A DNA stretch of 64,000 bases from Vulcanimicrobiota bacterium (GTDB taxonomy: Bacteria; Vulcanimicrobiota; Vulcanimicrobiia; Vulcanimicrobiales; Vulcanimicrobiaceae), in assembly GCA_027306785.1 (NCBI GenBank), contig DAHUZB010000005.1, positions 124,001 to 188,000 on the forward strand, in the 5' to 3' direction. Every line of letters begins with the position of its first letter. The first letter of the stretch is position 1. The position numbers were made by a program, and so were the translations under genes. Positions 39,578-58,035 of this stretch are shown here, piece after piece. A model generated the notes under the pieces. It worked only from the letters and a program-made list of their open reading frames with translations. It had not been told where the DNA came from and did no database searches.

Positions 39578-41299
39578 TTACTTGACCCGGCCGATCTTGT
39601 TGCTGCCGTTCTCGGTAAACCAGAGCGCGCCATCCGGCCCCGCCGTGATGGCCTGTGGAACGCTGTTCAGCGTGGGCACGCTGTACTCGGTGATCGCGCC
39701 GGACGTCGTGATGCGGCCGATCTTGTTGCCGCCGCTCTCGGCAAACCAGAGCGCGCCGTCCGGTCCCGCCGTGATGCTTTTGGGATTGCCGCCGGACGTG
39801 GGTACGCTATACTCGGTAATCGCGCCGGACGTTGTGATGCGGCCGATGTTGTTGCTGTTGATCTCGGTGAACCAAAGCGCGCCGTCGGGCCCCGCCGTCA
39901 TGGCCTGTGGAACGCTGCTCTACGAGGGCACGCTGGACTCGGTGATCGTCCCGGCCGTCGTGATGCGGCCGATCTGGTTGCTGATAAGCTCGGTCAACCA
40001 GAGCGCGCCGTCCGACCCCGCCGTGATGGCCTGTGGAAATCTGCCCGATGTGGGCACGCTGTACTCGGTAATCGCCCCGGCCGTCGTGATGCGACCGATC
40101 TTGTTGCCCTGGCCCTCCGTAAACCAGAGCGCGCCGTCCGGCCCCGCCGTGATACCGTAGGGACCGCTGTTCAATGTGGGCACGTTGTACTCGGTGATCG
40201 CGCCCGACGTCGTGATGCGGCCGATCTTGTTGCCGCTGTACTCGGTAAACCAGAGCGCGCCGTCCGGCCCCGCCGTGATATCGAAGGAACCGGTGCCGGA
40301 CGCGGGCACGCTGTACTCGGTAATCGCGCCGGATGTCGTGACGCGACCGATCTTGTTGCCGCTGTATTCGGTAAACCAGAGCGCGCCGTCCGGACCCGCC
40401 GTAATACCGTAGGGACTGCTGCCTGACGTGGGCACGCCGTAATCGGCGATCGTACCGGCCAGCGATTCGCCGAGTTGCAGTGTCAGGGGGATCACCGCGT
40501 TCGTTGCGGCGGTGCCGGTCCCCGATTGCGGCGTTGCGGTCGCCGTGAGATGCACGGCCGACGTGAACGGCGTCAAGCAGTTGACGCTGAAGGCGTTGGG
40601 CGATGCAGACCCGAGCGCGGCCGTCGTAACCGCGTTTGGCGTGTCACTCGACACGCTCATCGTGGGCGCGCCCGAGCCGAGAATGTAGTTACCGTCCGCG
40701 TCAACCCCGAACGCGCTAACGATCTGGGTGCTGCCGCATCCGGTAAGGGTGTATCCCGTGCTGTTGGTGCCGGAGAGCGCCGCCGCCGCGCTCGGCACAA
40801 GAATGACGGAGCTCGCAATTCCGCCCAGCGTCACGCCGATGTTGTTCGCAGCATCGGCGAGGATGGTGAACGGCACGTCCAGGTCGGCCGAGAGCTTACT
40901 GCCGGTCGGGTTGCCGCCGCTGAGCGGTCCGTCGTAGGTCGTGAAGTCGAACGTGTACGACCCCGGAGAGAGCGGGATGGTGATCGCGCAGGTCAGCGAC
41001 GAAATCGGCGTCGGCGTCGTGCAGCCGGGCGAGCCCGTCGTGATGTTCTGATTGGCCGTGCTGAGTAGCGTGGTATGCGTGCTGTCGTACACGCCGATCG
41101 CAATCGACTGCGTCGCGGGCGAAATGTACGCGGGACGACGCGCCTGCGTCGACGCCGCCTTCGGCACCGTGATGGTGAAGACCGCAGCTTGCGTTGCGTC
41201 GGCACTTCTCGGCGGCGTCATATTCGGTACGACGCTATGCGCGCCGCCGCACCCCGCCAAAAGCACTGCCGCAGCAATGACGATTCCAAACAGCTTCAT
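39578..41299 (-). pseudogene. Vgb-like seven-bladed propeller lipoprotein gene, interrupted by an in-frame amber codon
   Basis: The frame encodes a lipoprotein (signal MKLFGIVIAAAVLLAGC, lipobox Cys17), a beta-rich domain of about 270 residues and seven repeats of about 42 residues with GPDGALWFTE and GRITTSGAITEYSVP. A TAG at 39922-39920 lies between repeats 4 and 5; reading resumes in the same frame to 39578. The intact paralogue next to it has a serine codon (TCG) at that position. The product would be a four-bladed fragment unless the stop is read through. A GTG at 41317 overlapping the paralogue stop is an alternative start. Confidence 0.85.
39581..40446. repeat. 126-bp tandem repeats coding for propeller blades (array 1)
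   Basis: Seven units with a 126-bp period, the last one partial, encode the blades of the interrupted lipoprotein. Units are highly similar at the DNA level (recurring CCAGAGCGCGCCGTCCGG on the plus strand), so slippage or recombination between units is plausible. Antisense open frames here arise from the periodicity. Confidence 0.9.
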
Positions 41300-41313
41300 C
41301 GCTTTCGGGGACC

Positions 41314-43035
41314 TCACTTGAGCTGCCCGATCTTGTTGCTGGCGAACTCGGTAAACCAGAGCGCGCCGTTCGGGGCCGCCGTGATACCTTCGGGACCGCT
41401 GCTCGACGTGGGCACGTTGTACTCGGTGATCGCGCCGGCCGTCGTGATGCGACCGATGTTGTTGCCGTCGTGCTCGGTAAACCAGAGCGCACCGTCCGGC
41501 CCCGCCGTGATAATGCCCGGATAGCTGCTCGATGTGGGGACGCTGTACTCGGTAATCGCGCCGGACGTCGTAACGCGGCCGATCTTGTTGCCGCCGAACT
41601 CGGTAAACCAGAGCGCGCCGTCCGGGCCCGCCGTGATACTGACGGGAAATGGGCTCGACGTGGGCACGCTATATTCGGTGATCGCGCCGGACGTCGTGAT
41701 GCGGCCGATCTTACCACTGTAGTACTCCGTAAACCAGAGCGCGCCATCCGGTCCCGCCGTGATATAGAGGGGCTCACTGCCCGACGTGGGCACGCTGTAC
41801 TCGGTGATCGCGCCGGACGTCGTGATGCGGCCGATCTTGCCACTAGCGTACTCGGTAAACCAGAGCGCGCCGTCGGGCCCCGCCGTGATACCGTCGGGAT
41901 CGCTGCTCGACGTAGGCACGCTGTACTCGGTGATCGCGCCGGACGTTGTGATACGGCCGATCTTGTTACCGTTCTGTTCCGTAAACCAGAGCGCGCCGTC
42001 CGGGCCCGCCGTGATACCGAGGGGACGGCTGCTCGACGTGGGCACGCTGTACTCGGTGATCGCGCCGGACATCGTGATGCGGCCGATCTTGTTTCCATTC
42101 TGTTCCGCAAACCAGAGCGCGCCGTCCGGGCCCGCCGTGATACCTTGGGGAAGACTGCCGGACGTCGGCACGCCGTACTCGGTGATCGTACCGGTTAGCG
42201 ATTCGCCGAGCTGCAGCATCAGGGGGATCACCGCGTTCGTTGCCGCGGTGCCCGTCCCCGATTGCGCCGTTGCGGTCGCCGTGAGATGCACCGCCGACGT
42301 GAACGGTGTCAGGCAGTTTATGCTGAAGGCGTTGGGCGACGCAGGACCAAGCGCGGCCGTCGTGATCGCGCTTGGCGTGTCACTCGACACGCTCATCGTG
42401 GGCGCGCCCGAGCCTAAAATATAGTTACCGTCCGCGTCGACCCCGAACGCGCTGACGATCTGCGTGCTGCCGCATCCGGTAAGCGTGTATCCCGTGCTGT
42501 TGGTGCCGGAGAACGCCGCCGTTGCGCTCGGGGCGAGAATGACGGAGCTCGCGATACCGCCGAGCGAAACGCCGATGTTGTTCGCCGTACCGGCGACGAT
42601 CGTGAACGGCACGTCCAAGTTGGCCGACAGTTTACTACCGGTCGGACTGCCGCCGCTGAGCGGTCCGTCGTACGTCGTGAAATCGAACGTGTACGACCCC
42701 GGTGAGAGCGGGAGGGTGATCGCGCAGGTCAGCGGCGAGATCGGCGTCGGCGTCGTGCAGCCGGGCGCACCCACCGTGATATTCTGGTTGGCCGCGCTCA
42801 GCAGCGTAGTATGCTTGCTGTCGTACACGCCGATCGCAATCGACTGCGTGGCGGGCGAGATGTAGGCGGGACGCCGCGCCTGCGCTGACGCCGCCTTCGG
42901 CACCGTGATGGTGAAGACCGCAGCTTGCGTTGCCCCCGCACTTCTCGGCGGCGTCATATTCGGTACGACGCTATGCGCGCCGCCGCACCCCGCCAGAACG
43001 ACTACCGCCGCAATAACGATTCCAAGCCGCTGCAT
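41314..43035 (-). CDS. Vgb/SMP-30-like seven-bladed beta-propeller lipoprotein
   Basis: The 573-residue protein begins with a lipoprotein signal (MQRLGIVIAAVVVLAGC, Cys17), then a domain of about 270 residues with SYTFDFTTYDGPLSGG and GTNSTGYTLTGCGSTQIV, then seven 42-residue blades (ITAGPDGALWFTE...GRITTSGAITEYSVPTSS). Seven such repeats are the blade number of virginiamycin B lyase (Vgb). Family members often serve as secreted binding or sensor proteins, so lyase activity should not be assumed. It is the upstream member of a tandem pair whose N-terminal halves are nearly identical at DNA level, suggesting recent duplication or gene conversion. Confidence 0.88.
   Translation of the reverse strand: MQRLGIVIAAVVVLAGCGGAHSVVPNMTPPRSAGATQAAVFTITVPKAASAQARRPAYISPATQSIAIGVYDSKHTTLLSAANQNITVGAPGCTTPTPISPLTCAITLPLSPGSYTFDFTTYDGPLSGGSPTGSKLSANLDVPFTIVAGTANNIGVSLGGIASSVILAPSATAAFSGTNSTGYTLTGCGSTQIVSAFGVDADGNYILGSGAPTMSVSSDTPSAITTAALGPASPNAFSINCLTPFTSAVHLTATATAQSGTGTAATNAVIPLMLQLGESLTGTITEYGVPTSGSLPQGITAGPDGALWFAEQNGNKIGRITMSGAITEYSVPTSSSRPLGITAGPDGALWFTEQNGNKIGRITTSGAITEYSVPTSSSDPDGITAGPDGALWFTEYASGKIGRITTSGAITEYSVPTSGSEPLYITAGPDGALWFTEYYSGKIGRITTSGAITEYSVPTSSPFPVSITAGPDGALWFTEFGGNKIGRVTTSGAITEYSVPTSSSYPGIITAGPDGALWFTEHDGNNIGRITTAGAITEYNVPTSSSGPEGITAAPNGALWFTEFASNKIGQLK
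41317..42183. repeat. 126-bp tandem repeats coding for propeller blades (array 2)
   Basis: Seven tandem units, the last partial, encode the blades of the intact lipoprotein. Period and consensus match array 1, about 1.7 kb away, so the two arrays are potential substrates for homologous exchange. Confidence 0.9.
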
Positions 43036-50060: not shown

Positions 50061-50723
50061 GTGGATAAGGGGCCTACCTCTCGGGCCGAGAAGAGCCCCC
50101 GCGTGGAAAGCGTCGACGATTATTTAACACAACTCGCATCGGAATGGCCGACGCCGGGCGGCGGAAGCGCTGCGACCATGGTCGGAGCCGCCGGAGCCGC
50201 GCTCGTCGCGATGGTCAACCGCATCAACTCCGCCAACCCGAAATATGCCGCGCAGGCTGCACTCGCGCACGCGCTCGTCGCGCGGGCCGACGATCTGCGC
50301 GCCGAACTGCAGCGCGCCCGCGCGCGCGACGAAGCGGCTTTCGACCGCGTCGTCGCGGCGACCGCGATGCCCAAAAGCAGCGACGCCGAGAAAGCGACTC
50401 GCCGCGCCGCGCTCGAGATCGCGCTGAACCACGCCGCCGCGGAGCCGCTGCTCGCCGCGCAGAGCGCGCTCGAGGTGCTACGCCTGGCGGCCGAGAGCCT
50501 GAATATCCCGAACAAGAACCTGATCAGCGACATCGGGTGCGCCGCCGAATTCGCCGCCGCGGCGCTCGCCGCGTGCGCCTACAACGTGCGCATCAATCAC
50601 CGCTTCATGAAAGACGCCGACGCGATCGAGGCACAAGCGAATGCCCTCGCGCGCTACGAACGCGAAGGCAACGCCCTGCAGCAGTCGATCCGCCGCGCGG
50701 TCGGAGCGGCGCTCCGCAGTTAG
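50061..50723 (+). CDS. fchA: Cyclodeaminase/cyclohydrolase-family protein (FTCD_C-like)
   Basis: The 220-residue all-helical protein has the family signature PTPGGGSAATMVGAAGAALVAM and the long C-terminal helices of formimidoyl-THF cyclodeaminase or methenyl-THF cyclohydrolase. Both activities belong to folate one-carbon metabolism, which fits its location beside the methyl-cycle genes. Start is GTG 50061, divergent from ahcY. The last five codons and the TAG lie inside the 34-bp repeat that bounds the neighbouring insert. Confidence 0.9.
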   Translation: MDKGPTSRAEKSPRVESVDDYLTQLASEWPTPGGGSAATMVGAAGAALVAMVNRINSANPKYAAQAALAHALVARADDLRAELQRARARDEAAFDRVVAATAMPKSSDAEKATRRAALEIALNHAAAEPLLAAQSALEVLRLAAESLNIPNKNLISDIGCAAEFAAAALAACAYNVRINHRFMKDADAIEAQANALARYEREGNALQQSIRRAVGAALRS

Positions 50724-50739
50724 GGTTTCGGCGCCACGA
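50706..50739. repeat. 34-bp direct repeat, left copy (insert boundary)
   Basis: This sequence matches 54245-54278 at 33 of 34 positions (A at 50718 against G at 54257). It contains the last codons and stop of the cyclodeaminase gene on the plus strand. On the minus strand it contains a fragment equal to the last codons and stop of the M16 peptidase gene (reading VAPKP-stop), although that gene is 3.5 kb away. Confidence 0.9.
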
Positions 50740-50923
50740 CCGGACACCCACGGCCCGAGGCAGGGACGGGGGGGGGTGTGAGAAAACGCATTGACGGGTG
50801 TGGGCATATATGTACGCGTTCAGAGCCTCGCGGCTCGTAACACGCTGCGAAGCGTAAGCGTACGCCAAAGCTCGCTTCCCTATTTCGCCTTCGCGCCTGA
50901 GCGCGACGTTTAAGGAGTTGGAA

Positions 50924-51112
50924 GTGAAACATTTTCTCAAAGCGGCCTTCTGTCTCGGCCTCGTATTCTCGTCACTCGGCACCGCACGGGCAGCAACGTG
51001 CACGCACACTATTCTTGCTGTCACGCATTTTCGAAATGCGGCCGGTGGTCTCGAGACGTGCGCCCTCATTCAACTGAGCAACTGCTCCGTCGAAACCTCC
51101 TGCGATTACTAA
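50924..51112 (+). CDS. Small secreted cysteine-rich peptide
   Basis: The 62-residue product starts at GTG 50924 with AAGGAG 6 bases upstream. A canonical signal peptide (MKHFLKAAFCLGLVFSSLG followed by TARA) would release a 39-residue peptide starting ATCTH and ending SCDY. The mature part holds four cysteines at positions 3, 23, 31 and 37, enough for two disulfides. I recognise no family. A strong hairpin follows the gene before the next one, as often seen where a peptide must be made in excess over downstream products. A bioactive or signalling peptide is conceivable but unproven. Confidence 0.7.
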   Translation: MKHFLKAAFCLGLVFSSLGTARAATCTHTILAVTHFRNAAGGLETCALIQLSNCSVETSCDY

Positions 51113-51126
51113 CGCCCGGAACTTCC

Positions 51127-51152
51127 GCGCGGGCCACAATCGTGGCCCGCGC
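51127..51152 (+). terminator. Intra-operon hairpin (attenuator or partial terminator)
   Basis: GCGCGGGCCAC (51127-51137) and GTGGCCCGCGC (51142-51152) form a perfect 11-bp stem with an AATC loop, 15 bases after the peptide stop. No uninterrupted T-run follows (CGCCATCGAACTTT), so partial termination or 3'-end protection of the peptide mRNA is more likely than a full stop. Confidence 0.65.
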
Positions 51153-51190
51153 CGCCATCGAACTTTACCCGCAATTAGGATGATGCGAAT

Positions 51191-51901
51191 ATGAAGCTCC
51201 TCACTCCGGTCTTTACCAGCATAGCGATTTGCGTACTGACATCCGGAAACGCCGCGTCGGAGCCGATCTCACTGTTTGAACCGCACGTTCACGTCGGCGA
51301 GCAGCTCTCGTACCAGAGCGTCGAGTACGCCGGAGAACCGGTCAACATGCTGCATCGAGAATCAATCTCGATCAAAATCAGCAAGGTCGACCAAGGCAGA
51401 ATCGAATTTACCTATGACTGGCAAGGACACGCCGGTAAAGACTACGAGCGTGCTCAAGATGGCTCTCTTCGATGGCTGAACGGCGACAAGTGGGATAGTC
51501 CTCCGCTGGTGTTTTTCTGGCCGAAACAACAGTATGGAACTCCGCCTGATAATGTAAAGGTGGGGACATCCTGGACCGTCGACATGACGGAGCCGTCCTT
51601 TTTCGGAGGAATCGGAATCGCGAAGCTCACGGTGACCCGCATGAATGCGGGTTCACGGACGCTCGGGCTCCAATTGCTCATGCGCTCCATCGATAATGCG
51701 ACAGGGACGCCACCCGGAGTCAATGCTCCGGTTCAGTTTAAGATTTACAGCACGCGCGAAGCGAATATTACGCTGAAGAACGGGATCATTCAATCCATCA
51801 CGGTTTCGGGGCAGGACGTGCAAAAATCAAGCGGCGGCTTTACGGGTTCCGTTACCATGCCGATACACGATACCTTCACGCTGGTACACGACAAGCCGTA
51901 G
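51191..51901 (+). CDS. Secreted protein of unknown function
   Basis: The 236-residue product has a signal peptide (to about SGNAASE) and a mature beta-rich domain of about 210 residues (for example VGEQLSYQSVEYAG, IEFTYDWQGHAGKDYER, VKVGTSWTVDM and GIIQSITVSG). No cysteines remain in the mature part. It resembles in general form periplasmic lipid- or polymer-binding beta proteins, but I recognise no family. It sits between the small peptide and the receptor-like gene, 14 bases before the latter. AT-rich codons set it apart from core genes nearby. Confidence 0.75.
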   Translation: MKLLTPVFTSIAICVLTSGNAASEPISLFEPHVHVGEQLSYQSVEYAGEPVNMLHRESISIKISKVDQGRIEFTYDWQGHAGKDYERAQDGSLRWLNGDKWDSPPLVFFWPKQQYGTPPDNVKVGTSWTVDMTEPSFFGGIGIAKLTVTRMNAGSRTLGLQLLMRSIDNATGTPPGVNAPVQFKIYSTREANITLKNGIIQSITVSGQDVQKSSGGFTGSVTMPIHDTFTLVHDKP

Positions 51902-51915
51902 CGCATCGACTTTCG

Positions 51916-54243
51916 ATGCTTCGGAAAGCGTTCATCTGGTGCTTCGTCGCGGCGATTCTTCTGCCGCGAATCGCGCTTGCGCAGGCAACCCTGACACTTA
52001 AACTATCGGTTCTGGGCAAGCCGCTGAGCGGAGCCGCAATACGCATCGACCTCCCGGGCCGCGTGGTCGAAGCGACCTCGAATGCGCACGGTAAAGCCGT
52101 CATCGCGAACGTTCCTACCGGTCGATTCCTGCTGCATATCGAGAGCCCCGACACCGCCCCAACAACGACCTACGTTGTCGTCAAGTACGATACGAGCACG
52201 TTAACCCTGGCGATCGTTTTGGAAGCAAAGACGATCGCGACCGCAATCGCGTCTCCTCCGTTGCATGTGAGTCGCACGTACGTCAACCCGTCCACACCCC
52301 TCGGAAAGCTCTCCAGCGACCTCTACGACGAGCTCAATCGACTAGGCGGCGCCGATGTCAGAACCAATGCTTTGGGGCAACTGACCGGAATCTCGCTCGA
52401 GGGGCGAGATCCCAGATTGACGACCTACTCGCTCGATGGCGGGCTTCTCCCGTCGCCGCAAGCACTGCTCTCGCTCGATCCCGAGTTGCTGCAGTCGGCA
52501 ACCGTCGATACGGTCAGCAAGCCGGAGGTCGCGTTTTTTACGCTATCGCCCACCACATGGCCGACGTACACGATCAAGACGGTAGGCGGCGGCTTCAAGA
52601 CGGCGAAGGCCGATGTTACCGTACAGGGGACGACGGGCACGGTCGGATACGTCGTAGAAGCCGAAACGCACGCGAATGCCGGTCCGCTCGACAATCAACT
52701 CTTCCGAGACGCAAGTGGCCTCGACTACGTTCACCACGACGATCGGCGTGGTGGTGGCGCTCTCGCCAAGATCACCCAACAAGTCGGCCCCGCGAGCGCG
52801 ATAACGGCCGAGTTCGCGGCGAATGCATCCCGCGGAGCTTTCGTCGTACCCTATCTGCTCGGCTCCACGCCCGCCGGCGTCGGCCCGGGAAACTTCACAG
52901 CAACGAGCGGCCGGTACGGCGAAGTCGAATATGACACCCATACTGCAGGTTGGGACATTCGCTTTAACGCGCTCGATCTAGCCAACGAGCAAGCTGACGA
53001 ATTGCAACATCGTTTGATTGCCGGGGTGCCGAACCCGGGTTCCGACGGGTCGTCGTTTCAGGCGCAATCCGACTCTCTTGCTCTCATCCGAACATCTAAC
53101 CTCGGAACCCTCAACATCAACGTCGGAACGTCCCTGCTGAGAAGCAATGCGTACACGGCCTCATCTGTGACGCCGACGTTTGATGCGAGTCTCGGCAACC
53201 GCGCTCGGGACACCAGCGGTTCCGTCGATCTGGCACTGCATCACGGAAGCATCAAAGACATCAAGGTTTCATACAACCGCTATATGGGCCGGCCGGCAAC
53301 GCTGTATTTCGAGGGAAACGCTCGCCGCGAAAACGCCGCACATCTCACGTGGTTCTCCACCATCGGTTACGGATCGCTCGCTGAGCCTCCCTCGAGCGCG
53401 CAAACTTTCGGCAATCCGGCCTCCGCCACGTACGACTGCCAAGGGAATCAAATATTCGCTCAAGCACCGAACGAGACCGTCGATGTCACGCACGAACTCT
53501 ACGCGCGCGCCGGAATCACGCAGACACGGCCGACGGGGAGCTTTTCGGCGCAAGCATACGCAATCTCCGACTCCGGCGTGGGTGTCTCAAGCGCTACCGT
53601 ACCTGTGGAAGCATTCGGAGGCACGATCCCGACCGGCTACCTGGCTTCGCTGCTCGGAGACTTTGCGAGCGTCGGCGGATGTTCACCGGCTCCACAACCT
53701 CCTACGGTATTTTTCCAACACGATATCTCCGGCTTGCGCGTCGCCTACGAAGGACTCGAAATAAGTCTAAGCCGTCACATCGGACCGCATCTTATCATGC
53801 AGGCGAACCTAGAGTATCATCGAGCCCGACTGACGGCCGCAACGCGCGAACTCCTGAGCGCTCAGTCATCACCGTACATCGTCGGCACGCAATTGCCCGC
53901 GGTATCGCCGCTGTCTGCGTCGGTCACGTTCGATTGGGGTTTGCCCGATCAGCGCACCGAAGCGATTATCAACGCCCTCTATACAAGCCGGAACAACCCA
54001 AATAATCTCCCGGCCTACACACTCATAACAGCCGGACTCGAACGAAAACTCTCGCCGACCACCTCACTCACCCTCGTAGCGACCAACCTGGGGCATCGTT
54101 TTACGGATGCCTTCGTTTCGCCTCGCTTTGCGGTGCCTCTCGCCACCCGTTCGGGAGCACCGCTTCTTCTACCGGCGATTCCGCTTGCGGCGCCGCAGCT
54201 TTTCCTCACACTGCAGACGCGCATCGAGCGCGCTCCCTTCTAG
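51916..54243 (+). CDS. TonB-dependent-receptor-like outer-membrane protein, divergent plug
   Basis: In 775 residues the order is signal peptide (to about RIALAQA), a carboxypeptidase-regulatory-like beta-sandwich (about 25-105, VLGKPLSGAAIRIDLPG), a plug-like region (about 125-240, GISLEGRDPRLTTYSLDGG), and a beta-barrel ending TLQTRIERAPF with a terminal Phe, as in outer-membrane barrels. It is much shorter than the 1297-residue receptor in the window and its plug is poorly conserved. As the last gene of the cassette it may import or sense a ligand linked to the small peptide. That is inference. Confidence 0.75.
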   Translation: MLRKAFIWCFVAAILLPRIALAQATLTLKLSVLGKPLSGAAIRIDLPGRVVEATSNAHGKAVIANVPTGRFLLHIESPDTAPTTTYVVVKYDTSTLTLAIVLEAKTIATAIASPPLHVSRTYVNPSTPLGKLSSDLYDELNRLGGADVRTNALGQLTGISLEGRDPRLTTYSLDGGLLPSPQALLSLDPELLQSATVDTVSKPEVAFFTLSPTTWPTYTIKTVGGGFKTAKADVTVQGTTGTVGYVVEAETHANAGPLDNQLFRDASGLDYVHHDDRRGGGALAKITQQVGPASAITAEFAANASRGAFVVPYLLGSTPAGVGPGNFTATSGRYGEVEYDTHTAGWDIRFNALDLANEQADELQHRLIAGVPNPGSDGSSFQAQSDSLALIRTSNLGTLNINVGTSLLRSNAYTASSVTPTFDASLGNRARDTSGSVDLALHHGSIKDIKVSYNRYMGRPATLYFEGNARRENAAHLTWFSTIGYGSLAEPPSSAQTFGNPASATYDCQGNQIFAQAPNETVDVTHELYARAGITQTRPTGSFSAQAYAISDSGVGVSSATVPVEAFGGTIPTGYLASLLGDFASVGGCSPAPQPPTVFFQHDISGLRVAYEGLEISLSRHIGPHLIMQANLEYHRARLTAATRELLSAQSSPYIVGTQLPAVSPLSASVTFDWGLPDQRTEAIINALYTSRNNPNNLPAYTLITAGLERKLSPTTSLTLVATNLGHRFTDAFVSPRFAVPLATRSGAPLLLPAIPLAAPQLFLTLQTRIERAPF

Positions 54244-54244
54244 C

Positions 54245-54278
54245 GCGGCGCTCCGCGGTTAGGGTTTCGGCGCCACGA
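54245..54278. repeat. 34-bp direct repeat, right copy (insert boundary)
   Basis: This copy includes the true 3' end of the M16 peptidase gene (stop at 54261-54259) and a remnant of the cyclodeaminase 3' end (GCG CTC CGC GGT TAG in frame order), although that gene lies 3.5 kb upstream. See the left copy at 50706. Confidence 0.9.
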
Positions 54279-56913
54279 TCACACGCGTGAAGTGCGCAGG
54301 ATCGATCCAGCGCCGCATCGCGCGCTGCACGTCGGCGGGCGTCACCGCGAGCACGCGGTCGTAGTAGCGCGTCACGTCGTTGTCGTCGATGCCGTCGCGC
54401 AGATCGATGAGCAACTCGTCGGCCACCGCGCCGTAGCTGTCGAGCGAGACGGTGTAGTTGGAGAGCAGCATCGCCTTCGCGAGGGCGAGATCGCTCGCGC
54501 TCGGCGGCATCGCCCGCAAGCGCTCGATCGTCGCGAACGCCGTTCGCTGCGCCGCGCTCACGTTTTTGGGATCGGCGGCAAACGCGAGCGAGAAAGTCGA
54601 ACCGTTGCGACCGGCGTTGAGCGCGGAATCGATCGAGTACACGTAGCCGTGCGCCTCGCGAACGTCGCGGAAGAGCATCGAACCCGTTCCTTCGCCCGAG
54701 AGCATCGTATTCGCGACTTCGAGCGCGACCAGATCGCCGTTTCCGCGTCGCAACGGCAGACGCTGCGTGAGCGTCACCTGCGACTGCTTCACCGTCGCCG
54801 ACGCGATCGTGGTCGAGGTGGAGCGCACCTTGCCCTTCACCGACGGATAGGCCATCGACGGTTTCGGACCAACGGCTTTCCAGGCGCCGAAGTAACGTTC
54901 GAAGGCGGCCTTCACTTCGGCGGGAGAGACGTCGCCGACCACCGAGACCGACGTGAGATCGGGGCGATAGGCGAACGCGTACCAGCGCTTGACGTCGGCG
55001 AGCGTCACCGCGGCCGCGCTTGCCGCCGTCGCATGGCGGCGGTGCGGATCGCCCGGCGGATAGAGCGCATCGACGCGCGCGAGCTCCGCCTTAGTCTCCG
55101 GACGATTCTCCACCGCCGCGAGCGATTTGATCGCATCGCGGGCGACGATGGCGAAGCGAGCCGGCGAGAAGGCCGGGTGCAGTTCGCCGTCGGCGAGCAG
55201 CGCGATCGTGCGATCGAAATCGGCCGCGCGCGCCTGCGCCGCGAACGACGTGCCGAGCGAGACCGACGCGGCGATGCGATCGAGCTGCGCCTGATAGGCC
55301 TTCACGTCGTAGGTGGTGGTTCCGAAGGGCATGAGCGAGCTCGTCAAGTCGGCCACGCCCTCTTTGCCCTTCGGTTCGTACACGTCGGGATTGCTGCGAA
55401 TCTCCGCGCGCACCACGAACGTCGGCGAGAAGCGCTCGCGCCGCACCGCGATCTTCATGCCGTTGGGCAAGGTGAACGTGCTCGCCGGATCGCGATCGCG
55501 TGGCGCATGCAGCGGCGCCGCGAAGTAGGCGTTCGTCCACGCGGGCAGCGTGACGTCCTTACTCGCTGTCACCTTCACGTTCTCGGTTGCGCTCATCCGA
55601 TCGACGTGCGGCATCGCAGCCGTCGGATTTGCGAGCAGCGCGAGCGAGATGCGCGGGGCGCCGCTCACGTACGTGCGGAAGACGCGATTCACGTCGGCAT
55701 CGGTCACGCGCTCGAGCGCGGCGTAGTAGGCCGCGGGCGTGCGATGCTCGATCGCGCGTTCGATCGACCACTCGGCCGCCTGACCCGGAATGCTCGACGC
55801 CTCGTAGGCGCGCGATGCGAGCAGACGCGCCTTCGCCGCGGCGATGAGATCGTCGGGGATGCCCGTGCGGGCGTACTCCGCGAGGATCGTATCGAGCGCG
55901 GAGAGCGTCGCCTTCGGGTCGCCGCCGGGCAGTGGAGCCGCGACGAATACGCCGCTGCCGCCCTGCGGAAAGCCGGTCGATAGGCCGAGCGCGATGAGCG
56001 CTTTGCCGCTTAGCGCGAGATCGGCGAGCCGTCCTCGCGCGTTATCGAGCGCGGTGAAGAGCACCTGATCCGCGGCGTAATCGGGATCGTCGAGGCCCGG
56101 CGCGCGAAACGACTCCACCGCGAACGAGAGCGGGAAGTCGACGCGCTGCACGATCGTCTTGGCCTGCAACACACCGAGCGGCAGCGCGGGATGGGCGGGC
56201 AGCGGCGCCGACGGAATCGCGCCGAAACGGCGGCGCACCGAGGCGAGCGCGCGCTGCGGATCGACATCACCGACGATCACGAGCGTCGCATTGTTGGGGT
56301 GATACCAGGTCTTGTAGAACGCGGCGATGTCGGATGCGCGCATGCGGTTGAAGCCCGCGATCGTGCCGACCGGATCGCGCCCCCACGGCGAGGTGCCGTA
56401 GAAGACGTCGTTCACTTGCTTCATCGCGGGCAGCAGCGGATTGCCCAGATGCGCCTTCACCTCTTGTTCGATCGCACCGCGCTCGTGCTCCCACGCGCGC
56501 TCGCTCATCCGCGCATGCTGCATGCGATCGGCTTCGAGGCGCAGCACGATGCCCAAATAGTTCGCCGGAATCGTGAAGTAGTAGCGGGTGGAGATCGCGG
56601 TCGTCTCGGCGTCGTACTGCGCTCCCATGCGCGTCGCGATGTTCGCGAACTGCTCGCTCGAGATGTCGGTGGTACCGCGGAAGAGCATGTGCTCGGTCGC
56701 ATGCGCGATGCCGGGAATCGTATCGTCCACGCCGCCGACCCCGTAGACGATCGAGGTCGTCACCACCGGTGCGAGCCGGTTGCGCACGATCACCACGTGC
56801 ATCCCGTTCGAGAGTACGGCATCGACGGGCGCTCCGTCGGCGGCACGCGCCGCCGTCATGGCCGAGCACGCGAGAACGCCGGCAATGATACCGGCGAGGA
56901 ACGTAGGTTTCAC
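54259..56913 (-). CDS. Secreted M16-family (insulinase-like) zinc peptidase, fused two-half form
   Basis: The 884-residue protein has a signal peptide (to about MTAARA), a first M16 half with the inverted zinc motif HxxEH in HATEHMLFRG and a downstream Glu in AIEQEVKAH, and a second half (from about 480) with the usual non-catalytic M16 fold (LPNGMKIAVRRE and SVVGDVSP). Full-length fused M16 proteins degrade or process peptides in the periplasm. GTG 56913 follows GGGAG and gives a normal signal peptide; the track start 56925 adds 4 residues. Its 3' end forms one side of the insert boundary. Confidence 0.93.
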   Translation of the reverse strand: MKPTFLAGIIAGVLACSAMTAARAADGAPVDAVLSNGMHVVIVRNRLAPVVTTSIVYGVGGVDDTIPGIAHATEHMLFRGTTDISSEQFANIATRMGAQYDAETTAISTRYYFTIPANYLGIVLRLEADRMQHARMSERAWEHERGAIEQEVKAHLGNPLLPAMKQVNDVFYGTSPWGRDPVGTIAGFNRMRASDIAAFYKTWYHPNNATLVIVGDVDPQRALASVRRRFGAIPSAPLPAHPALPLGVLQAKTIVQRVDFPLSFAVESFRAPGLDDPDYAADQVLFTALDNARGRLADLALSGKALIALGLSTGFPQGGSGVFVAAPLPGGDPKATLSALDTILAEYARTGIPDDLIAAAKARLLASRAYEASSIPGQAAEWSIERAIEHRTPAAYYAALERVTDADVNRVFRTYVSGAPRISLALLANPTAAMPHVDRMSATENVKVTASKDVTLPAWTNAYFAAPLHAPRDRDPASTFTLPNGMKIAVRRERFSPTFVVRAEIRSNPDVYEPKGKEGVADLTSSLMPFGTTTYDVKAYQAQLDRIAASVSLGTSFAAQARAADFDRTIALLADGELHPAFSPARFAIVARDAIKSLAAVENRPETKAELARVDALYPPGDPHRRHATAASAAAVTLADVKRWYAFAYRPDLTSVSVVGDVSPAEVKAAFERYFGAWKAVGPKPSMAYPSVKGKVRSTSTTIASATVKQSQVTLTQRLPLRRGNGDLVALEVANTMLSGEGTGSMLFRDVREAHGYVYSIDSALNAGRNGSTFSLAFAADPKNVSAAQRTAFATIERLRAMPPSASDLALAKAMLLSNYTVSLDSYGAVADELLIDLRDGIDDNDVTRYYDRVLAVTPADVQRAMRRWIDPAHFTRVIVAPKP

Positions 56914-56941
56914 CTGGACTCCCACACCGCTTGCGAGCGAT

Positions 56942-57748
56942 TTATCGAAGGACGAGATGCAGAAAAGGCTGGATATCTTCGCGCTCGACCGTGACCCCTA
57001 CTCCGTGCGCGTGATAGCGAATATCGTGAAAATCCGAGCCCGCGGTCATTACGAGGCCGTAGTGCCGTGCCTTCTCACGAAAGACGCGGATGTCGTCGGC
57101 GTCGTGCGTGGGGTAGAAGACCTCGAGCCCGCGCAGTCCGGCTTGGGCGAGTTCGTCGACGATCGCGCGGTCCTTCAAGCGGCCCGGATGCGCGAGCACC
57201 GGCACCCCGCCCGCGGCGGCGATCGCCGCGATCGCCTGCTGCGGCGTCGCATGGGTGGAAGGAACGTAGCCCGGCTTTCCGCGGCGCAGCAGGTTGCGGA
57301 AGGCCCATTCGATATCGGGCGCCATGCCGCGACGGATCAGGGCCTTGCCCACGTGCGGGCGCCCGAGCGCGTGCGCCGACGCGGCTTCGCGCCGCACGTC
57401 GTCGAGGGTGATGCCGTAGCCGGCCGCGCGCAGCCGCGCGACCATCTTCTCGGCGCGTTTCACACGTTCGCTGCGGTTGTGCTCGATCAGGGCGGCGAGC
57501 TCGGGTGCGTCGGGTGAGACCGCGTAGCCGAGCACGTGCACTTCGTTCTCGCGGTAGGTCGTATTGATCTCGATCCCGGTGATGGCGCGCGCGCCGTTGC
57601 GCGGCTCGAACGCTCCGTGGGCGCCGAGCGTATCGTGATCGCTGATCGCGAAGATCTCGACCCCGCGCTCGCCCATGAAATCGGCGAGCGCCTGCGGATC
57701 GAGCGTGCCGTCGCTCAGATGCGTGTGCGAATGAAAGTCGACGATCAC
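56942..57748 (-). CDS. PHP-domain phosphoesterase (RNase AM/TrpH-like)
   Basis: The 268-residue metal-dependent phosphoesterase shows VDFHSHTHLSDGTL, ISDHDTLGAH, GIEINTTY, VLAHPGRLKD and TAGSDFHD, the PHP motif set. Members such as RNase AM act on small nucleotides or 5' RNA ends. GTG 57748 overlaps the spoVS stop (GTGA). It is the last gene of a coupled operon with ymdB and spoVS, suggesting a shared role in nucleotide or RNA metabolism. Confidence 0.9.
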   Translation of the reverse strand: MIVDFHSHTHLSDGTLDPQALADFMGERGVEIFAISDHDTLGAHGAFEPRNGARAITGIEINTTYRENEVHVLGYAVSPDAPELAALIEHNRSERVKRAEKMVARLRAAGYGITLDDVRREAASAHALGRPHVGKALIRRGMAPDIEWAFRNLLRRGKPGYVPSTHATPQQAIAAIAAAGGVPVLAHPGRLKDRAIVDELAQAGLRGLEVFYPTHDADDIRVFREKARHYGLVMTAGSDFHDIRYHAHGVGVTVEREDIQPFLHLVLR

Positions 57749-58035
57749 CCGCGCCGTTCCACGGTGAGCGAGATCCCGGTGCGCTCGTGCTCGCTGATCT
57801 CGACGGTGATGAACGACGGCACGCACACGAGATCGATGCCGCCTTCTTTAAGATAGCTGCGGGCGATCGCCACGGCCTTGACCGCCTGGTTGATGGCGCC
57901 CGCGCCGACGGCCTGCATCTCCGCGCGCTCGCGTTCGCGCAGCGCCGCGGCGAGCGCGCCCGCCACGGCGTTCGGGTTACTCTTGGCCGAGACTTTCAGC
58001 GTTTCGGGTGCGACGCGTTCCGAATCCTCATTCAT
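57745..58035 (-). CDS. spoVS: SpoVS-family protein
   Basis: The 96-residue protein closely matches SpoVS along its length: LKVSAKSNPNAVAGALAAALRER, AVGAGAINQAVKAVAIARSYL and DLVCVPSFITVEI (each shown in part). SpoVS is an Alba-like protein of sporulating Firmicutes and some other phyla. ATG 58035 overlaps the ymdB stop (ATGA), and its stop overlaps the PHP gene. In many genomes spoVS lies by rny and ymdB; rny is absent here. Confidence 0.95.
   Translation of the reverse strand: MNEDSERVAPETLKVSAKSNPNAVAGALAAALRERERAEMQAVGAGAINQAVKAVAIARSYLKEGGIDLVCVPSFITVEISEHERTGISLTVERRG

Follow-up and report, generated by a model that had tools for sequence, protein, structure and literature searches.

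How can three genes come to lie exactly where two convergent neighbours meet, and leave both neighbours intact? The question is raised by a 3505-bp cassette that separates fchA from an M16 peptidase gene in the window analysed here (the whole stretch of 64,000 nucleotides from a Vulcanimicrobiota bacterium, genome G000) and that is bordered by 34-bp direct repeats. The locus offers a clean, roughly datable case in which new genes that bring no recombinase have entered a compact bacterial chromosome. Its features, in window coordinates, are:

50061-50723, plus strand: fchA, an intact FTCD_C-family cyclohydrolase/cyclodeaminase gene forming the left flank (Pfam PF04961, E 8.3e-46)
50706-50739: left 34-bp copy, comprising the last 15 nt and the TAG of fchA followed by a remnant of the M16 3′ end (50720-50739)
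50740-54244: inserted cassette, 3505 bp, 58.7% GC, absent from the same junction at six other loci
50768-50776, plus strand: G9 homopolymer, 28 bp inside the cassette and upstream of the peptide gene
50924-51112, plus strand: gene for a 62-aa peptide with a GTG start, a signal-peptide-like N-terminus and 5 Cys; weak sequence counterparts and positional counterparts elsewhere
51191-51901, plus strand: P3, a 236-aa exported all-beta protein of no Pfam family, with homologues at 17-23% identity in five other modules
51916-54243, plus strand: P4, a 775-aa outer-membrane barrel of the TonB-dependent-receptor type, 26-32% identical to its module homologues
54245-54278: right 34-bp copy, in which a remnant of the fchA 3′ end (54245-54262) overlaps the true M16 3′ end
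54259-56925, minus strand: M16 peptidase gene, the intact right flank (Pfam Peptidase_M16_C, E 1.4e-48; also Peptidase_M16)
56942-57826, minus strand: the next gene past M16, which from our reading of its sequence we take to encode a PHP-domain protein, and which is directly convergent with fchA where M16 is absent

The two 34-bp copies, with a spacing of 3539 bp, are identical at 33 of 34 positions; the left copy reads GCGGCGCTCCGCAGTTAGGGTTTCGGCGCCACGA, and the sole mismatch is an A/G difference at the 13th base, G being the base in the right copy. About 2e-8 such pairs would be expected by chance in 64 kb. Each copy holds the final 15 nt of fchA together with about 17 nt of M16, including the motif TTAG in which the two stop codons overlap (the fchA stop is TAG at 50721-50723; the M16 stop is TTA at 54259-54261, on the minus strand), and each is a full miniature of the fchA–M16 junction. 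The initial annotation had described these repeats, with their 33/34 identity and both gene 3′ ends inside each copy, correctly, and had noted that a widely dispersed, unrelated repeat would tell against its reading; in the whole 3.14-Mb genome the sequence occurs in these two copies only, even when up to 3 mismatches are allowed, which rules out a dispersed repeat. A loxP-like arrangement was also rejected, as the 34 bp contain no dyad and no 13-8-13 symmetry beyond that of shuffled sequences. In roughly 0.32 Mb of the same genome the only other long direct repeats are paralogous or tandem ones and the att repeat of an element at tRNA-Glu described below. Imperfect long direct repeats of 100-190 bp, many of them spaced 1736 bp apart, lie at 39600-42800 of the window and are probably coding.

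Relatives of fchA are present in 73 of 78 genomes, and at six loci, from six genomes in five genera, fchA and M16 are convergent and adjacent without the cassette. Two of these belong to the same genus (G002, and contig C78 of G001) and four to the same family (G038, G008, G036 and G013). All six keep the order MetK-AHCY-fchA-M16-PHP, with the ends of fchA and M16 close together; G038 carries additional DNA between M16 and the PHP gene. The sequence preceding the left copy aligns with the fchA ends of the six, and TCACACGCGTGAAG, which follows the right copy, aligns with their M16 ends, so that the M16 C-terminus can be followed across the empty junction. Only the present genome, among those examined, carries the cassette there. 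The comparison of this junction among relatives for which the initial annotation had called thus yields a clean empty site and shows that in the ancestor fchA and M16 stood tail to tail, with stops overlapping or nearly so, as had been supposed. Given the cassette-free junction in these six relatives, the insertion is derived. In many other family members M16 is absent, with fchA meeting the PHP gene directly, or other genes intervene, and the fchA–PHP region is therefore variable in general. One relative, G001, has two MetK-AHCY-fchA-PHP loci (L064 and L065, on contigs C78 and C131), one with M16 and one without, possibly because two species were binned together (4% contamination) rather than through duplication.

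The composition of the cassette is foreign to the window. Its GC content of 58.7% compares with 66.3% for the rest of the window and lies below that of every other 3505-bp stretch of it (minimum 60.7%), bearing out the lower GC first noticed there, and GC3 is 0.60-0.67 in the cassette genes against 0.80-0.87 in the flanking genes. Taken together, the aligned sequences strongly support a derived insertion of 3505 bp that duplicated the fchA–M16 junction and broke neither gene, which is the simplest reading and the one first proposed for the locus; the empty junction in relatives and the uniqueness of the repeats within the genome both support it. The duplicated junction of overlapping stops shows that two neighbours can survive an insertion placed exactly on top of both. 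The reverse history, in which the cassette is ancestral and the relatives lost it, has the attraction that recombination between the 34-bp copies would yield just such a clean empty junction, but it would have to account for empty sites at six loci in five genera, with M16 aligned through and the cassette in this genome alone, for repeats whose two gene ends already presuppose an empty junction, and for a composition unlike the host; we consider it extremely improbable. A chimeric join is also conceivable in a draft genome of 35 contigs; against such an artefact, the cassette lies well inside a contig of 206,690 bp, its module is a real, conserved gene set, and a false join would not reproduce 34 bp of the junction while leaving the two genes whole at their ends, which makes this explanation very unlikely. 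The repeat copies differ at 1 of 34 positions, against 38-41% of the four-fold sites in M16 and fchA when congeners are compared, and the insertion is therefore probably far more recent than the genus.

Neither open reading frames nor Pfam searches reveal a recombinase or transposase among the three genes of the cassette, in agreement with the initial annotation. The stop codon of P4 lies 1 bp ahead of the right repeat, and its C-terminus aligns fully with its homologues. The N-terminus is CarboxypepD_reg-like (a match below cut-off). In an alignment of the family, four of the five members match Pfam Plug (best E 4.3e-6) and one matches the barrel, P4 of the window itself having no Pfam match to either; the family profile matches a TonB-dependent receptor of known structure (PDB 9rvq, E 4e-6). 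By these Plug and barrel domains P4 counts as a predicted TonB-dependent receptor. Structure prediction for P4 from five sequences was poor (pLDDT 48). An AlphaFold model of P3 (pLDDT 74) is all-beta and matches numerous beta barrels and half-pipes with Z 7-10; as no match is a clear winner, we claim no function for this protein. Searched as single sequences, the peptide had no relatives in the class and P3 none in the family. A contig scan for homologues returned only a 21-residue Burkholderia match, taken as chance, as were DNA matches to the peptide region in G033, G013 and G001.

A TonB-dependent transporter of the Oar type is needed for secretion of PopC in Myxococcus (PMC6434023). P4 resembles Oar in its domain order, a likeness that serves as a lead only: both combine a TonB-dependent barrel with an N-terminal carboxypeptidase-regulatory-like domain and are encoded beside exported proteins, whereas P4 has no known substrate and is encoded beside a Cys-rich peptide and a beta protein that is an orphan. 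The module presumably brings its own function in transport or secretion, in which the small peptide would be a variable Cys-rich partner.

The same trio recurs elsewhere. Upstream of each of the best P4 homologues, in G032:C27 and G015:C101, lie a P3-like gene and a gene for a short exported peptide, and a P3 profile built from three rows recovered further full modules at G015:C168, G096:C232 and G103:C48, so that the search for other copies of the cassette suggested by the initial annotation places homologous three-gene modules in G032, G015 (twice), G096 and G103; some relative of P3 is present in 10 of 117 genomes. The cassette is a three-gene module that recurs in other genera at different loci; the present case exposes its patchy inheritance and its pairing of a TonB-dependent barrel with a short, exported Cys-rich peptide. 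The module peptides are 62-86 aa long; five of the six contain 5-7 Cys, and that of G015:C101 has no Cys. All three genes show a dN/dS of about 0.13-0.16 between G096 and G103, indicating purifying selection, and hence that the peptide is a real gene in these two genomes and the trio is maintained. The other modules are also poorer in GC than their flanks (0.59-0.61 in four of five, 0.63 in G015:C168), so low GC may in part belong to the module itself and not reflect a donor.

The sites occupied by these modules differ. In G096 and G103, of genus g25, the module sits between an ABC-F gene and a gene that, on reading its sequence, we presume to be 2-oxoacid dehydrogenase E2-like; the same intergene is empty in G026 and G102 and holds other DNA in G097, G098, G100 and G101. 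This intergene upstream of ABC-F (L137-L143) is an insertion hot spot, with differing DNA in several genomes. In G015, one copy (L092 with L182; 141 bp are shared by contigs C110 and C101) separates a ligD-like gene from ku, two NHEJ genes that adjoin each other in G000, G002, G008, G032 and others. Both flanks can be read at four modules (G096, G103, G032 and G015:C101), and none of these has flanking direct repeats; other insertions at the fchA–PHP site likewise have no comparable flanking repeat, apart from one 11-bp match in G032, and no duplications were found at the M16 edges. The 34-bp duplication thus belongs to this event and not to the module, and the compared loci present no apparent signature of module-specific or site-specific recombination. 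The missing repeats are weak evidence, since older insertions could have lost theirs by decay.

As possible mechanisms, the initial annotation named an att-like site, homologous capture and an element acting in trans. An att-type origin would make the 34 bp the attL and attR of a tyrosine-recombinase-type element whose integrase has been lost or which was mobilised in trans, with an attP that mimicked the ends of the target genes and so kept both intact. Sites of the att type usually take the form of long direct repeats that rebuild a gene 3′ end, a mismatch between the copies would be natural, and an integrated element of 26 kb, with an att repeat of 24 bp, is already present in the genome. 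That element, at tRNA-Glu (contig C29 of G000, about 161.2-187.4 kb; L144:11153-11321 to L145), has a phage-type integrase and the att repeat TTCGATTCCCGTTGGCGCTACCAC, and its GC falls to about 0.52-0.55 inside. The genome encodes two tyrosine recombinases, this phage-type enzyme adjoining tRNA-Glu and an Xer-like one, which from its sequence we take to be the Xer housekeeping enzyme; no member of the resolvase family was found in it. The resident phage-type integrase, however, uses the tRNA-Glu 3′ end, which is unlike the 34 bp, the repeat lacks dyad symmetry, the single base pair between the P4 gene and the right repeat leaves no room for lost genes, and the homologous modules have no att-like repeats. 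No cognate integrase with a matching att was found in the cassette or elsewhere in the genome; it is possible that the integrase was on a lost plasmid or in another strain.

Elements that keep attL and attR without integration genes are known as CIMEs (PMC5704250). With these and other integrase-less islands (decayed ICEs or IMEs) the cassette shares the character of non-self-mobile DNA enclosed by long direct repeats through which a gene end is restored. Of what defines a CIME, the flanking direct repeats (34 bp, 33/34) and the empty site are present and a cognate integrase was not found; the junction is empty in all six relatives, whose sequences there have diverged too far for attB to be defined at the base level. 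In contrast to CIMEs, the cassette contains no remnant of integration or transfer genes, its repeat spans two convergent protein genes, and its homologous modules have no flanking repeats. On balance an att-type origin is possible but rather unlikely.

A target-site duplication left by a transposon would share with this locus a direct duplication of the target on either side of the insert. Such duplications are usually 2-14 bp long, which 34 bp exceeds, and a transposon or insertion sequence is disfavoured by the lack of a transposase and of terminal inverted repeats: the best end-to-end match (p 0.05 against shuffles) is displaced by about 40-50 bp and provides no convincing arms.

Under homologous capture, the cassette would have come from a strain already possessing it, either circular or within a longer fragment and in both cases accompanied by the 34 bp, and would have integrated by homologous recombination. 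This would account for neat boundaries and a recent date, and a length of 34 bp is close to the shortest that supports such recombination. The duplication would then have arisen earlier, in the donor strain, so that the proposal merely shifts its origin to another strain, and no other genome examined has the cassette at the fchA–M16 junction. We regard it as unlikely.

Our preferred, and tentative, reading, whose chances we place a little short of even, is capture independent of any recombinase, at a staggered break or by template switching at a replication fork. In the first form, a staggered break at the fchA–M16 junction would have received a foreign fragment, and fill-in of the overhangs followed by end joining (Ku, LigD) would have produced the 34-bp duplication; in the second, a replication fork would have left its template and returned 34 bp upstream, the template switch itself creating the duplication. 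The genome encodes Ku with an adjoining LigD-like gene. A filter would then act on the outcome: without duplication, one or both gene ends would be changed by the insertion, leaving only duplicating insertions to survive. The overlap of the stops in TTAG, where only a duplicating insertion spares both genes, may thus explain why a duplication is seen here and not at roomier intergenes.

Capture is favoured by a cassette without a recombinase or convincing terminal inverted repeat, by the lack of dyad in the 34 bp, and by related modules and other fchA–PHP insertions that have no flanking repeat. With illegitimate recombination, non-homologous end joining and template switching the locus shares the missing recombinase, the arbitrary sites, which differ between modules, and lower-GC foreign DNA. 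Against capture, 34 bp is long for break fill-in and longer than is known to be typical of these processes, we know of no direct bacterial precedent for a fill-in duplication of this length, and a literature search of partial coverage returned no paper on a recombinase-free 34-bp duplication. The mismatch between the repeats is also what an attP/attB pair could show. A boundary 1 bp past the P4 stop is neat for a random fragment, although it fits capture, att recombination in trans and homologous capture alike. No donor sequence for the cassette was found among the genomes searched. It is conceivable, though we think it improbable, that the trio is an unrecognised roaming surface module of this class, acquired without a recombinase while duplicating overlapping gene ends and leaving the neighbours intact; the module often has a rare G tract upstream.

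In a first sample, G/C runs of at least 8 numbered one in 379 kb of this genome and two in 495 kb of relatives, all three directly upstream of a module. Genome-wide, G000 has runs of at least 9 at about five places and G015 at six (of which two are one locus on overlapping contigs), so the association of tract and module is strong and not exclusive. Tracts of 9-11 stand upstream of the module in G000 (50768-50776) and of both G015 copies, the G015 tracts being G10-G11; besides that of the window, the tract positions are L092:73-82, L126:9162-9172, L180:6227 and L183:6405. The promoter of the FetA receptor is phase-variable (PMC5231331). As in FetA-like promoters, where the homopolymer occupies the spacer, three tracts of G015 (on C168, C40 and C188) fill, as judged by eye, a spacer of 19-21 bp between TTGACA and TATACT, TAATCT or TATTCT, suggesting phase-variable promoters in this bacterial class, whereas the G9 tract of the window lies outside any spacer between recognisable -35 and -10 hexamers. 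A C49 run in G026:C3 (L189:4599) and a G54 run (G103:C57:96-149) are possibly sequencing or assembly artefacts. On contig C30 of G000 (L177:5477 and L178:6432), C9-C10 runs are followed by GTGTCACCCTGAGC...GTCGAAGGGC, apparently a dispersed repeat family of this genome.
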